Assembly (NCBI GenBank): GCA_025356015.1
Contig: JANXYO010000120.1
Coordinates: forward strand, 1-53,928
Length of the DNA stretch: 53,928 nt
DNA from: Spirochaetaceae bacterium
Lineage (GTDB): Bacteria; Spirochaetota; Spirochaetia; Treponematales; Rectinemataceae
Direction: 5' to 3'
In this document: piece after piece, positions 28,373 to 49,538 of the stretch
Layout of the letters: the number at the start of each line of letters is the position of its first letter
Position numbering within the stretch: the stretch's first letter is position 1
The notes under the pieces: model-generated
Told to the model about the DNA's origin: nothing
The model's input: the letters and a program-made list of their open reading frames with translations, nothing else
Databases searched by the model: none
Translations under genes and position numbers: made by a program

Positions 28373-29713
28373 CTACGCCGACCCTTCCTCTGCGAAGGCG
28401 CTCTGCTCGCCCGACGTGCTGTACACGTGGGCGAGGACTGCGGCGATCGCCCCATAGTACTTCTCCGGTATCGCGTCTCCGATCTCGACGTCGGCGTAGA
28501 GGGCCCGCGCGAGGGGCCGGTTCTCGACAATCGGGACCTCGTTCTCCTCTGCGATCTTCCTGATCCTCAGGGCCACCTCGTCCATGCCCTTGGCGCTGAC
28601 GATGGGAGCCTCCATGCGCTCGCGCTCCCACTCGAGGGCGACCGCGTAGTGGGTCGGGTTGGTGATGACCACGTCGGCCTTGGGGACGTTGGCGGCCATG
28701 TTCCTCGACAGGAGCTCCCTCATGCGCTCGCGCAGCCTGCTCTTGACCAGTGGGTCTCCCTCCTGCATCTTGCGCTCTTCCTTGACCTCTTCCTTGGACA
28801 TCTTGAGGCCCTCGAGGTACTGCCGCCTCTGGAAGAGGTAGTCGGGGACCGAGAACGCGAGCAGGGCGACAGCGACCTCGATGATAAGGCGGATGGCGAG
28901 GGAGCCGATGAAGGTCACAGAGCTCCAGAAGGGAGTCGTGAACATGGCCATGAGGCGGTCGAGGTCGTTGCGTATCGTCATGTAGGCGATGACCCCGATG
29001 ATGGCCACCTTTATGAGGGACTTGGCAAGATTGAAAAGGCCCTCCATGGAGAAGATCGTCTTCTTGAGGTACTGCCCGAAACGCGGGACGATGCGGGAGA
29101 AGTCGGGCGTGATCGGCTTCAAGGTGAAGAGGAAGCCCACCTGGATGAAGTTCGAGAAGAGGGCAGCTATGACGGCGACGCTCGCGATGGGAAGGGCAAG
29201 CTTGACGAAGTAGGAGAAGAAGGCCTGGGAGACTATCCCCCCGTCGCGCGTGATGTCGACCGTGGTTGCCCGGCCGAGAAAGAAGATCACCATCTCCCTG
29301 AGGGTCCTGGCGTAGTAGGGGGCCATGATGGCCAGGGCAGCCGCGGGAATGAGGAGGCCCATGGCCCCCACCAGCTCCTGGCTCTTGGCGACCCTTCCCT
29401 CTTCCCTCGCCTTTCGGATCTTGTATTCCGAGGCCTCTTCGGTGCGGCCCTCGTCCTCAGCCGCGAACCACTGCAAGTGAATGTGGTTCGCGGCTCTCGA
29501 GAATCGCCTTTCGTCATCGCCGGGCGATTCTCGCGCTGGATCCGCCCACTGCAGATGGATGCGACTCGACTCTGCAGTCGAACAATACCGCAGAGGCGCA
29601 GAGGCGCAGAGACAAGAGGGAGTGTATGGCAATGCGAGCCGCAATGTCACTGAGACACCTTCGCTACTTGCGCTTGTATGAGCCGCAAGCGACTCCCATT
29701 CTCCTATATTCAT
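28373..29713 (-). CDS. flhB: FlhB, export gate and substrate-specificity switch, with repeat-derived N-terminal extension
   Basis: 446 residues if started at the only in-frame ATG (29713). The conserved core begins at ~residue 81 (LQWFAAEDEGRTEE) and includes four membrane helices and the autocleavage motif NPTH in ITNPTHYAV. The first ~80 residues are not FlhB-like: they are read from a repeat element (29587-29752) and three inverted repeats. A TTG at 29476 would start exactly at LQWFAAEDE and give 367 residues, close to other spirochaete FlhBs, but its ribosome site is weak. The frame also stays open back through fliR to 30643, which is incidental. Confidence 0.88.
   Translation of the reverse strand: MNIGEWESLAAHTSASSEGVSVTLRLALPYTPSCLCASAPLRYCSTAESSRIHLQWADPARESPGDDERRFSRAANHIHLQWFAAEDEGRTEEASEYKIRKAREEGRVAKSQELVGAMGLLIPAAALAIMAPYYARTLREMVIFFLGRATTVDITRDGGIVSQAFFSYFVKLALPIASVAVIAALFSNFIQVGFLFTLKPITPDFSRIVPRFGQYLKKTIFSMEGLFNLAKSLIKVAIIGVIAYMTIRNDLDRLMAMFTTPFWSSVTFIGSLAIRLIIEVAVALLAFSVPDYLFQRRQYLEGLKMSKEEVKEERKMQEGDPLVKSRLRERMRELLSRNMAANVPKADVVITNPTHYAVALEWERERMEAPIVSAKGMDEVALRIRKIAEENEVPIVENRPLARALYADVEIGDAIPEKYYGAIAAVLAHVYSTSGEQSAFAEEGSA
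29461..29493. repeat. Inverted repeat IR-1 at the start of the FlhB core
   Basis: Perfect 11-bp stem (CCGCGAACCAC / GTGGTTCGCGG) around an 11-base loop. One arm encodes the conserved WFAA of FlhB and the other is its exact reverse complement, so the upstream arm looks like an inverted duplication. The possible TTG start lies in the loop. Confidence 0.75.
29498..29533. repeat. Inverted repeat IR-2 within the FlhB extension
   Basis: Perfect 11-bp stem (CGAGAATCGCC / GGCGATTCTCG) around a 14-base loop, read in frame in the FlhB extension. Confidence 0.75.
29566..29581. repeat. Inverted repeat IR-3 within the FlhB extension
   Basis: 6-bp stem (TCGACT / AGTCGA) with a 4-base loop, between IR-2 and the repeat element. 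The same residues IHLQW are encoded just downstream of it and again at the core start, with three synonymous differences. Confidence 0.55.
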
Positions 29714-29752
29714 TCCCGATATCTCTTCTCTGCGCCTCCGCGGCTCTGCGGT
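29587..29752. repeat. Arm-bounded repeat element 1 (fliR/flhB gap)
   Basis: 166 bp. The left arm 29587-29612 (ACCGCAGAGGCGCAGAGG...) and the reverse complement of the right arm 29727-29752 agree at 24 of 26 bases. The arm is three tandem copies of an 8-bp unit CGCAGAGR. The interior is unlike the other copies and contains the flhB ATG. No transposase is encoded. Confidence 0.8.
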
Positions 29753-29787
29753 TTCTGCCCGCTTTGCAGCCTGCTTCCTGGTGGCGT

Positions 29788-30567
29788 TCACAGCTTGCCT
29801 CCCACCAGGAGGCCCAGGTCGTCGAAGCTCGAAGAGATGAGGCGGGAGAAGGCCTCCATCATGAAGGGCAGTGTCGCTATCATGAGGAGGAAGGTGACGG
29901 TGAGCGATATTGGGAAGCCTTCCGTCAGCAGGTTCATCTGCGGAGCCGCTTTCGAGAGCAGGCCCAGGGCGACGCTCAGGACGAAGAGGGTCCCCATCAC
30001 GGGAAGGGCTATCACGAGGGACTGCTGGAACAGGGCCGAGAGGGACTTGAGCATGAGCTGGACTATGTCCTCGCGGCGGGTCACGAGGTCCCAGGCCCTC
30101 ATGGCCTGGAAGGAACCCTTCACCCCGATCAGGAAGAGCTTCTGGAAACCTTCCGTCATCAGGAAGACGAACATGGCGATGAGGTTGAGGAACTGGCCCA
30201 TGAGGGGTATCTCGATCTCGGCGAGGGGGTCGAAGGACTCGATCGCCCCGAAACCGATCTCCTGGGAGAAGAACTGGCCGGCGGTGATGAAGGCCGCATA
30301 GACCAGGGAAAGAAAGAAACCCATGATGAGGCCGATCATGGCCTCGCCCACGACGAGCAGGGCGTAGGCCGCTCCGTCCGCGGGGATCGGGTAGCCGGCT
30401 GCCTTGACCGAGGGAAAGACGACGGCTGCGGCAAAACCAGCCAGGCCCAGCTTCGCGACTTGCGGTATCCCCCCGCTCGAGAGCAGGGGAGCGACCTCTA
30501 TCATGGCGAGGACGCGCACCGCCACGAGGATGAAGAGGTTGAAATCCGCGAAAGGCCAGGAGTACAT
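29788..30567 (-). CDS. fliR: FliR, export gate membrane protein
   Basis: 259 residues with about six membrane segments. The conserved part GVIP-like start SGGIPQVAKLGLAGF, the charged loop with SFDPLAEIEIPLMGQFLN and the C-terminal helix pair are as expected. FliR packs with FliP and FliQ in the helical core of the export gate. It begins 6 bp after fliQ. Confidence 0.93.
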   Translation of the reverse strand: MYSWPFADFNLFILVAVRVLAMIEVAPLLSSGGIPQVAKLGLAGFAAAVVFPSVKAAGYPIPADGAAYALLVVGEAMIGLIMGFFLSLVYAAFITAGQFFSQEIGFGAIESFDPLAEIEIPLMGQFLNLIAMFVFLMTEGFQKLFLIGVKGSFQAMRAWDLVTRREDIVQLMLKSLSALFQQSLVIALPVMGTLFVLSVALGLLSKAAPQMNLLTEGFPISLTVTFLLMIATLPFMMEAFSRLISSSFDDLGLLVGGKL

Positions 30568-33669: not shown

Positions 33670-34694
33670 AGTTCATCTCCTTCGGATGCCAATTCTTCGA
33701 ACTCTTCCTGTCCCACGTCCTCGAGCTTCTTGATGATCTGGACGGCCATCTTCTTGCCAATCACGCCGGGGCGGCAGAGGAACTTCTTCTTGTTGCCAAC
33801 ATTGAGCATCATGGGGTCGTCGACCCTGACGGAGTGCAGGCGCACGAAGTCACCCACCCTGAGGGCGAGGACGTCGCGCACGGAGATATCGATCCTCCCG
33901 ACCTCGGCGATCACGGGGATCTCGACGGTCGAGAGCTTTTCCTTGAGGATGTTGAGGTTCTCGGTGGTCGCGCCGCGGCGGACCGAGGAGTACCAGTACT
34001 GGGCCGAGAGCTTGGAGACTATCGGCTCTATCGTAAGGTAGGGGATGCAGAGGTTCATCATGCCCTCGACCTCGCCGACCTTGGTCTCGAGGGTGACGAG
34101 GACGACCATCTCTGTGGGAGGGACGATCTGGGCGAACTGGGGGTTGGTCTCTATCTGGGACAGGCGGGGACGGAGGTCGATGACCTGGGTCCAGGCCTCC
34201 CTCATGTTGCCGAGGATCCTGACAATGATGCCTTCCATGACCGAATGCTCGATGTCGGTGAGTTCCCGGTTGAGCTTGGCTCCCTCGCCCGAGCCGCCAA
34301 AAAGGCGGTCGATGATGGTGAAGGTCACCGAGGGGTCGATCTCGAGGATGGCCTGGCCCTTCAAGGGGTCCATGCTGACGACGGCGAGGGTCGTGGGAGT
34401 CGGGATCGAGCGGATGAACTCCTCGTAGGTGAGCTGGTCGACCGAGGCCACGTGGACGTGGACAAGGGCGCGCATGGAGGCCGAGAGGCTCGTGGTGGTG
34501 AGGCGGGCGAAGGTCTCGTGCATGATCTGGACGGTGCGGATCTGCTCCTTTGAGAACTTGTCCGGCCGCTTGAAGTCATAGATCTTGATCTTGCGGGTGT
34601 CGGCCGCTGGCTTTATCGTCTCAAGCTCTGTTTCGCCGGCGTTTATGGCCGTGAGGAGCTGGTCTATCTCATCCTGGGACAGGACTTCCGTCAT
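33666..34694 (-). CDS. fliM: FliM, flagellar switch protein
   Basis: 342 residues. CheY-P-binding motif LSQDEIDQLLTAI at 5-17; middle domain with the FliG-binding GGSGEG loop; C-terminal SpoA domain (~260-330). It links phospho-CheY to rotor direction. It begins 8 bp after fliL. Confidence 0.96.
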   Translation of the reverse strand: MTEVLSQDEIDQLLTAINAGETELETIKPAADTRKIKIYDFKRPDKFSKEQIRTVQIMHETFARLTTTSLSASMRALVHVHVASVDQLTYEEFIRSIPTPTTLAVVSMDPLKGQAILEIDPSVTFTIIDRLFGGSGEGAKLNRELTDIEHSVMEGIIVRILGNMREAWTQVIDLRPRLSQIETNPQFAQIVPPTEMVVLVTLETKVGEVEGMMNLCIPYLTIEPIVSKLSAQYWYSSVRRGATTENLNILKEKLSTVEIPVIAEVGRIDISVRDVLALRVGDFVRLHSVRVDDPMMLNVGNKKKFLCRPGVIGKKMAVQIIKKLEDVGQEEFEELASEGDEL

Positions 34695-34702
34695 GCCGCC
34701 TC

Positions 34703-35260
34703 CTAGAGCTTTATGACGTCCAGACGCTCGAAAAGCACTTCCTTGATAGACGGCACCGAGAGGATCCTGTTCAGGTCTTCCTTGATCTCGGCCTTGACGA
34801 CCTCTTCCTTGGCGGGGGCGAGGTCCTCGGCGAGCTTCCCGGTGAAGTAGCGCCTGAGGTAGTCGCGTATCTGGGGGAGGCGCTCGTTGACGCGCTTGTC
34901 TGCTTCCTTGTCGCCCACGTCGAAGCCGAGGTTGATGCGGACCACCACCGAATAAGGCTCGGTGTCGCTCGTCCTGGTGCGTATCTCGCCGATGGTGCCA
35001 ATGTAGGCGTAGACGGGGGTCGCCGTCTGGTAGGCCTCGCTGACAGGGGTCACCGTCATGGGCTTGCCCTGCTTGTTGACGATTCCCACCGTGATGACGA
35101 CGACGGTCACGATGAAGATGACGGCGCCAAGGCCGATCCCGACGATCATGAGGATCCGGGCGAGGCCCGGCCCCGCTCCCTTCGCCTTCGGCGCGGCTGC
35201 GGCCTCGGCCTCGCCACCCTCCGCGAAGTTCATCTCCTGGTCATCGACGCTGTCGGACAT
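34703..35260 (-). CDS. fliL: FliL, stator-associated membrane protein
   Basis: 185 residues. One membrane helix (about 36-60) and a periplasmic domain ending FERLDVIKL, the FliL pattern. FliL rings surround the MotAB stator and in spirochaetes affect filament orientation. Here it is the first gene after a sigma-28 promoter and after the gap where motA and motB would normally be. Confidence 0.93.
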   Translation of the reverse strand: MSDSVDDQEMNFAEGGEAEAAAAPKAKGAGPGLARILMIVGIGLGAVIFIVTVVVITVGIVNKQGKPMTVTPVSEAYQTATPVYAYIGTIGEIRTRTSDTEPYSVVVRINLGFDVGDKEADKRVNERLPQIRDYLRRYFTGKLAEDLAPAKEEVVKAEIKEDLNRILSVPSIKEVLFERLDVIKL

Positions 35261-35324
35261 GGCTCCTCCTCGACCGCTACCGGACCGAAAGGCATCCGCA
35301 TGCCGGTCGATCTCCGCTTTTACA

Positions 35325-35351
35325 TTATCGGCGCACTTCGAGTCGGATTAA
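35325..35351 (-). promoter_or_regulatory. Sigma-28 (FliA) promoter upstream of fliL
   Basis: The minus strand carries a perfect -10 box GCCGATAA (35325-35332) 15 bp after TTAA (35348-35351; consensus TAAA). It is ~65 bp before the fliL ATG. A second possible -10, TATACT, lies just upstream at ~35352-35357. The spacing matches the FliA consensus. Confidence 0.7.
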
Positions 35352-35399
35352 GTATACACAGCTGAGGGCAGACTGAAAAGCGCACCAGATGTGCCGGCC

Positions 35400-35597
35400 T
35401 CACTCCCCCTCACCGAAGTAGCCGATCCTCCGCCTGTACTCGACGATCCGCTCTATGACGACGCCTACCTTCTCGAGCACGATGATCCGCTTCCCCGAGA
35501 GCATGGTCAATGTGGTGTCGGGATTCGCCTCGATGCTCTCGATCTGGTGGGGGTTGAGGTGGAAGGTCTTCCCCGAAAGCAGGGTCAGCTCGATCAT
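35400..35597 (-). CDS. flbD: FlbD, small conserved flagellar protein
   Basis: 65 residues (MIELTLLSGKTFHLNP...). It has the FlbD pattern LNPHQIESIE and a second strand pair SGKRIIVLEKV. The family sits between flgE and motA in spirochaetes and Firmicutes and its role is not established. It is flanked by repeat element 2 upstream and the motAB-less gap downstream. Confidence 0.93.
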   Translation of the reverse strand: MIELTLLSGKTFHLNPHQIESIEANPDTTLTMLSGKRIIVLEKVGVVIERIVEYRRRIGYFGEGE

Positions 35598-35628
35598 GGT
35601 GCCCCCCGTGGGTCACGAAAATAGAAAA

Positions 35629-35792
35629 ACCGCAGAGGCGCGGAGGCGCAGAGGGGAACGCAAGAGGAGCTCAAGGATGGAATTGGAGGCTACGAAGGCG
35701 CCGCAAGCCTTGAAGCGGCGATCTCCCCCCTTGCCTTCCCACCCTTTCTCTTCTCCTCTCCTTCTTGCTCTGTGTCTCTGCGTCTCTGTGGC
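35629..35792. repeat. Arm-bounded repeat element 2 (flgE/flbD gap)
   Basis: 164 bp. Left arm 35629-35654 against the right arm 35768-35792: 19 of 24 positions pair, and all five differences are G/A exchanges. It fills most of the 218-bp gap. The interior shows no gene and no similarity to the other copies. Confidence 0.75.
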
Positions 35793-46900: not shown

Positions 46901-47348
46901 ACCGCGGAGAGCGCGGAGGGCGCGGAGGAAGAAAGAAAAGGGATGGAGGGGAATCGCTTTCTTTCTGCGGACCCTGTACCCATGCTCTCCCTCCTCTTCC
47001 TTCGTGCCGGTGAAAATCATCGGAAGCCGGGTGATTTTCACCGAGCGCCTGGTGATTTCCACGCGCCAGCCGATGATTCTCACTCATGGCCGTGTGATTC
47101 CCACATGTGCTCGCGTGATTTTCACGCGGCCCCCGGTGATTTCCACGCAAGGCTCCGTGATTCCCACCCATCGCTCCGTGATCTTCACGCACCGTCCTGT
47201 GATTTCCACTCGGCCTTCGGTGATTTTCACTCAAAGCACAGTGATTCCCACTCACCGCTTAAGTGATTTCCGCTCAACCCTCAGTGATTTTCACGCAACT
47301 CTCTCTCCCCTCAGTGCTCTCCGTGGCTTAGCTGCGTGTCTCCGCGGC
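46901..47348. repeat. Arm-bounded repeat element 3 (hslU/flgB gap), carrying the array
   Basis: 448 bp. The left arm 46901-46928 is three copies of a 9-bp unit CGCGGAGRG; the right arm is degenerate, but 47339-47348 pairs with 46901-46910 at 9 of 10. It is larger than the other three because it encloses the 21-bp array. A purine tract AGAAAGAAAAG and its pyrimidine complement (~46929-46975) form another potential stem. Confidence 0.6.
47010..47294. repeat. 14-unit phased array of an 11-bp near-palindrome every 21 bp
   Basis: Units begin at 47010, 47031, 47052, 47073, 47094, 47115, 47136, 47157, 47178, 47199, 47220, 47241, 47263 and 47284: period exactly 21 bp except one 22. Consensus GTGATTYYCAC (full palindrome GTGA-TTT-TCAC when YY is TT). 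The 10-bp spacers share no consensus. The two Y positions cycle TT, TC, (CT,) CC through much of the array. See findings. Confidence 0.9.
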
Positions 47349-49388: not shown

Positions 49389-49538
49389 AACCGCAGAGAC
49401 GCGGAGTCGCAGAGGAATCCCAGAGAGAGGGGCTGACCGGGACAGAGTCGCCAGGCAAGAATTCCACAACTTCCGGCACCCAGGTCAAAACCCCGGAACC
49501 AGTTCCTCTTGTCTCTGCGCCTCTGCGTCTCTGCGGTT
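49389..49538. repeat. Arm-bounded repeat element 4 (xerC/hslV gap)
   Basis: 150 bp. Left arm 49389-49414 and the reverse complement of the right arm 49513-49538 agree at 24 of 26 bases. The arm is again CGCAGAG-type 8-bp units. The interior contains a TTCCGG/CCGGAA stem but no gene. Confidence 0.8.

Follow-up and report, generated by a model that had tools for sequence, protein, structure and literature searches.

In-frame insertion of an inverted-arm repeat in the N-terminal leader of a spirochaete FlhB, and its recurrence among relatives

Rickettsia palindromic elements (RPEs) are described as inverted-repeat sequences of ∼150 bp that are dispersed and lie in frame in protein-coding genes (PMC10969869). 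Element 1, a 166-bp repeat in the flhB gene of a Spirochaetaceae bacterium, resembles them as a dispersed palindromic repeat, with 32 arm matches in its genome, and the flhB insert is open and in phase in 8/8 leaders that carry both arms by the test given below. When compared with the described features of RPEs, element 1 differs in its arms, which are built of other, 8-bp units, in its unconserved interior, in its host, a spirochaete, and in its site, a variable leader rather than a protein body. Copies across the genome share the arms only; their interiors are without match and encode no conserved peptide. For this reason element 1 is not an RPE, although by analogy it behaves as an RPE inserted in frame would. 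The preliminary description of this DNA, made from its letters alone, had pointed to RPEs, and the analogy was apt for an in-frame palindromic insertion near the FlhB start, but it does not extend to identity.

The family also shares features with MITEs: it is short, has inverted termini and many copies per genome, carries no enzyme gene of its own and appears to share its ends with a larger coding relative, the GxxExxY genes. No target-site duplication was obvious by eye in the flanks. Unlike in MITEs, the arms are short tandem units, and the protein encoded by the larger relative is of the GxxExxY/PDDEXK_3 type (TIGR04256, PF13366), not a recognised transposase. FliR-FlhB fusions, which are natural in Clostridium and, when engineered in Salmonella, are described as weakly complementing (PMC7064499), likewise give FlhB a large N-terminal addition; here, however, the genes are separate, their stop and start codons overlap, and it is a mobile repeat that supplies the addition.

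Our reading, with a probability of about 0.8, is that (i) flhB starts at a GTG on the fliR stop; (ii) its leader is tolerant; (iii) element 1 is an insertion of a non-autonomous family; and (iv) the LQWFAA codons were copied locally in separate events.

The flhB start codon and the leader

The window, the whole stretch of 53,928 nucleotides analysed, is contig 31 of a 4.17-Mb genome in 150 contigs, and FlhB places it closest, among named relatives, to Spirochaetota MAGs. Profile matches placed fliP, fliQ, fliR, flhB and flhA on its minus strand. The FlhB protein passes the TIGR00328 equivalog cut-off (401.7 bits vs. 349.25), with PF01312 and TIGR00328 spanning residues 114–461.

29788–30567, minus strand: fliR, stop TGA at 29790–29788, with TIGR01400 and PF01311 matches
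28373–29791, minus strand: flhB coding sequence, 472 codons plus stop, read from the putative GTG at 29791–29789 that overlaps the fliR stop
29798–29802, minus strand: Shine-Dalgarno (SD) sequence GGAGG, 6 nt upstream of the GTG at 29791, inside the end of fliR
29477–29791, minus strand: FlhB leader, codons 1–105, hypervariable and predicted disordered

It had been proposed that the FlhB start was rebuilt by the repeat element, since the only in-frame ATG lies inside it. The observation is correct, ATG 29713 being the sole in-frame ATG of the leader, but the conclusion does not hold: the frame is already open from the fliR stop onward, the GTG and its GGAGG lie upstream of element 1, and nearly all relatives have an NTG overlapping fliR. 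FlhB very probably starts at GTG 29791–29789, which forms GTGA with the fliR stop, as judged from frame and SD sequence. Because this start lies upstream, element 1 would be wholly inside the coding leader.

We read 110 fliR-flhB junctions (30 from whole genomes and 80 named) and kept 86 after removing 14 duplicates, 8 without readable fliR and 2 without anchor. An NTG that overlaps the fliR stop shared its frame with the flhB core at 78/86 spirochaete junctions (binomial 1.3e-28). All but one of the 78 were stop-free (77/78), L139 alone being in frame but closed. When the junctions were sorted by hand, flhB was in frame at 75/76 with a TGA fliR stop (L105 is out of frame) vs. 3/10 with TAA or TAG, which is the chance level. 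This split is an internal control, and thus the overlapping NTGA holds the frame. An SD match of at least 5 nt preceded the overlap start at 40/78 in-frame junctions and the LQW codons at 1/78; among the eight insert-bearing leaders it was absent in L033 and L075. The preliminary description had named an uninterrupted N-terminus in a sister genome as a check, and L032 (G008) answers it: this locus has an ATG start on the fliR stop and no element in its leader, and it keeps the doubled xLQW arrangement.

If translation began internally, at ATG 29713 or TTG 29476, the leader upstream would be untranslated and element 1 an ordinary intergenic insertion. The lone in-frame ATG fits this explanation, as does the finding that most other element copies are not embedded in a long frame that stays open to both sides. 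However, frame and openness are preserved over the 75/76 TGA junctions, no SD match was found upstream of either internal codon, and the other two frames hold stops in all eight insert-bearing leaders. We consider an internal start improbable; both codons were rejected, including TTG 29476, which had been raised as a possible sole start.

The median leader length, from the start to the EGRTE anchor, is 34.5 codons, with extremes of 16 and 182; the closed L139 has the longest leader. In the predicted structure (27-sequence model), pLDDT was mostly <50 at residues 15–107 and mostly >80 in the core. The conserved core, in which WFA is invariant, begins at LQWFAAEDEGRTE; WFAA is therefore part of the core and not of the inserted part. 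In the published FliPQR-FlhB structure, FlhB residues 1–28 are described as unseen and the N-terminus as lying at the cytoplasmic gate entrance (PMC7064499). The stretch between the GTG and the LQWFAAEDEGRTE core would then be a cytoplasmic N-terminus under little sequence constraint, and DNA landing there would be retained only when the frame stays open and in phase. Tolerance may thus be the reason why the inserts are in frame.

Element 1 and its recurrence in flhB leaders

Three members of the element 1 family were found in the window (no strand assigned).

29587–29752: element 1 (166 bp), within the flhB leader; its interior varies, and its arms are built of 8-bp units, ACCGCAGAG(N)CGC(R)GAG
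35629–35792: second member
49390–49537: third member

Element 1, named in the preliminary description, is confirmed as an inverted-arm element; its arms are 31 nt long and 87% complementary. The frame beside the third member runs into HslV-like sequence, recognised by eye. Elsewhere in the window (47007–47296), twelve copies of a GTGATTTTCAC-like unit, mostly at 21-bp spacing, are perhaps a binding-site array.

In the two-arm test each arm had to lie within 4 mismatches over 17 nt. Both arms were detected in 8/86 leaders (L031, which is the window, L033, L035, L036, L037, L049, L075 and L091) and in 6/1280 shuffled leaders. Frame 0 was open in all eight, and the other two same-strand frames were closed in 16/16 cases. 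On the tree of 86 FlhB cores, presence of the element requires at least 8 gains or losses, gains not being separable from losses. Looser sets used before this test held 10 rows (at least 6 changes) or, with L058, 11 rows; the strict eight were used for counts. L039 and L052 failed the objective test and were dropped.

Arm flavour is specific to the genome (ACCGC in G000, ACCAC-A in G001 and ACCAC-G in G014), and in these three, the ones compared, each flhB insert matches its own genome. The flhB genes of L049, L052 and L091 are 89–95% identical over 900 nt, and two carry the element while one has at most a remnant; for L052, the remnant at most, vs. L091, with the element, identity is 94.6% over 900 nt. 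The genome of the sister, G008, has neither arm matches nor GxxExxY matches. Arm counts per genome appeared associated with intact inserts (5/6 against 0/8); because the intact/degenerate cut was picked post hoc and the L035 and L036 inserts are in low-count genomes, this association was not used as evidence.

An assembly artefact of metagenome-derived genomes could be suspected, as many relatives are MAGs and the window's own genome (G000) consists of 150 contigs. However, assemblies made separately in different projects have different inserts at the same place, always in frame, and we regard an artefact as exceedingly improbable. The insertion of a mobile repeat in the FlhB leader is real, in frame and recurrent, and the start is ordinary. 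Comparison among relatives shows start, frame, insertion and shared arm type at the level of sequence; element 1 itself would be one tolerated landing in the leader, from an inverted-arm family resident in the genome.

The flhB leader of L058 contains a different palindromic repeat (GTAGGGGCGTTGCGCGCAACGCCCCTAC), likewise in frame. L100 (Treponema sp. MAG) and L094 (Spirochaetia bacterium) have other tandem repeats that end in the native MDLQW or MDIQW. In L051/L077 (G030), flhB is in two pieces (contig 34239–35243 and 35239–35673), by frameshift or assembly error.

Inner palindromes and repeated LQWFAA codons

Four shorter features span the end of the leader and the start of the core.

29546–29560, minus strand: upstream IHLQW copy
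29498–29533, no strand assigned: palindrome with an 11-bp perfect stem, single-copy
29468–29482, minus strand: native IHLQW, at the start of the conserved core
29459–29495, no strand assigned: palindrome with a 13-bp perfect stem, formed by the native WFAA codons and their upstream inverse copy

The preliminary description had listed three inverted repeats of 6, 11 and 11 bp. The 11-bp stem at 29498–29533 stands, but the innermost stem, that of the WFAA arm and its perfect inverse, is 13 rather than 11 bp, with its WFAA arm native, and the 6-bp stem is just two CTGCAG sites, meaningless by itself. When the 136-nt stretch was shuffled 1000 times with dinucleotides preserved, no shuffle reached a 13-bp stem and 0.2% reached an 11-bp one. 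The IHLQW residues do occur twice with three synonymous differences, as had been noted.

A genome search with 29455–29585 returned only the region itself, its own inverse and short matches at chance level. The inner palindromes are single-copy and thus not repeats of the Rickettsia type; their earlier interpretation as repeat insertions is not upheld, and dispersed repeats were ruled out by this search. The native LQWFAA codons had inverse copies above chance (p ≤0.005) in 4/85 leaders (L031, L032, L039 and L041, all of the window's family) and direct copies, at the same threshold, in 8/85, where ∼0.4 inverse and ∼0.4 direct would be expected among 85 leaders. When the window's second IHLQW was tested as DNA, it did not qualify as a direct copy (p 0.21).

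Template switching and tandem duplication are established mutational mechanisms. The inner palindromes resemble native codons copied locally and in inverted orientation, and the likeliest origin of the inner repeats would be local template switching plus tandem duplication. Under this mechanism the palindromes and the second IHLQW would have arisen apart from element 1, the native LQWFAA codons having been copied locally, both inverted and in tandem.

Alternatively, the 13-bp hairpin at these codons could be a regulatory RNA structure that controls FlhB translation, a view that the perfect stem (0/1000 shuffles) and the inverse copies in four family members would favor. Such a role is very improbable, as 81/85 leaders have no significant inverse copy and the hairpin lies ∼100 codons into the frame; the window has no Rfam match, and an RNA family was rejected on that ground.

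The number of LQWF-type copies varies between close relatives, with four in L049, three in L052 and two in L091, and the number of tandem IDLQWFVAN units (∼72 bp) at the flhB start also differs among the three. The leader with its repeated LQWF might be functional, for example by offering the export gate several docking sites, with selection rather than tolerance accounting for the repeats. This would fit the invariant WFA of the core, the excess of direct copies, the four copies in L049 and the described position of the FlhB N-terminus at the gate entrance (PMC7064499). However, the leader of L093 has just 8 residues ahead of LQW, and the copies are patchy, with 8 changes on the tree and unequal numbers between near-identical genomes. 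We find selection for function unlikely and favor a tolerant leader.

Relation to GxxExxY genes

In related genomes, arms of the element 1 type flank GxxExxY (PDDEXK_3) nuclease genes, and one element copy in the window's genome contains a GxxExxY remnant, although element 1 retains no recognised part of the gene. A flank test covered 32 of 35 GxxExxY genes, the other 3 having flanks too short for it; flanking inverted repeats exceeded the 99.9% level of the shuffles at 9/32 genes vs. 2.4% of 208 control windows from the same loci. L178, L181, L182, L199 and L209–L212 stayed outside this test (partial matches; L199 repeats L174). Several genes have the same CRCRGAGN arms and others have other units, e.g., CCACGAAA or CGGATAAGA, which suggests a broad family of such elements. 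L202, L195, L183 and L174 are among the genes flanked by inverted arms of other unit sequences. Against such a link, clear flanking inverted repeats are limited to 9/32 genes, and genome G016 has GxxExxY genes but no arm-pattern match.

Because its arms match those around GxxExxY genes, element 1 is probably related to a GxxExxY element, as a small non-autonomous form, and the GxxExxY enzyme is a candidate for its mobilisation. The wider proposal, that CRCRGAGN repeats are small forms of a GxxExxY PDDEXK_3 mobile family and that they recurrently land in frame in the FlhB leader, is put forward tentatively, at somewhat less than even odds. A full-text search of the open literature returned no paper tying the arm repeats to GxxExxY, PDDEXK_3, PF13366 or TIGR04256 genes and no match to six arm sequences, and nothing on spirochaete FlhB leaders was among the open-literature matches listed.

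The fliR overlap should guide the annotation of start codons of spirochaete FlhB. The locus extends the in-frame entry of repeats into a protein beyond Rickettsia, at a single site that can be compared in many relatives, and it lets one ask what the terminus of an essential membrane protein tolerates. GxxExxY is a testable candidate mover for a class of bacterial dispersed repeats. If the wider proposal is true, the N-terminus of an essential export-gate protein, at the entrance of the gate, is subject to continual gain and loss of tails coded by mobile DNA.
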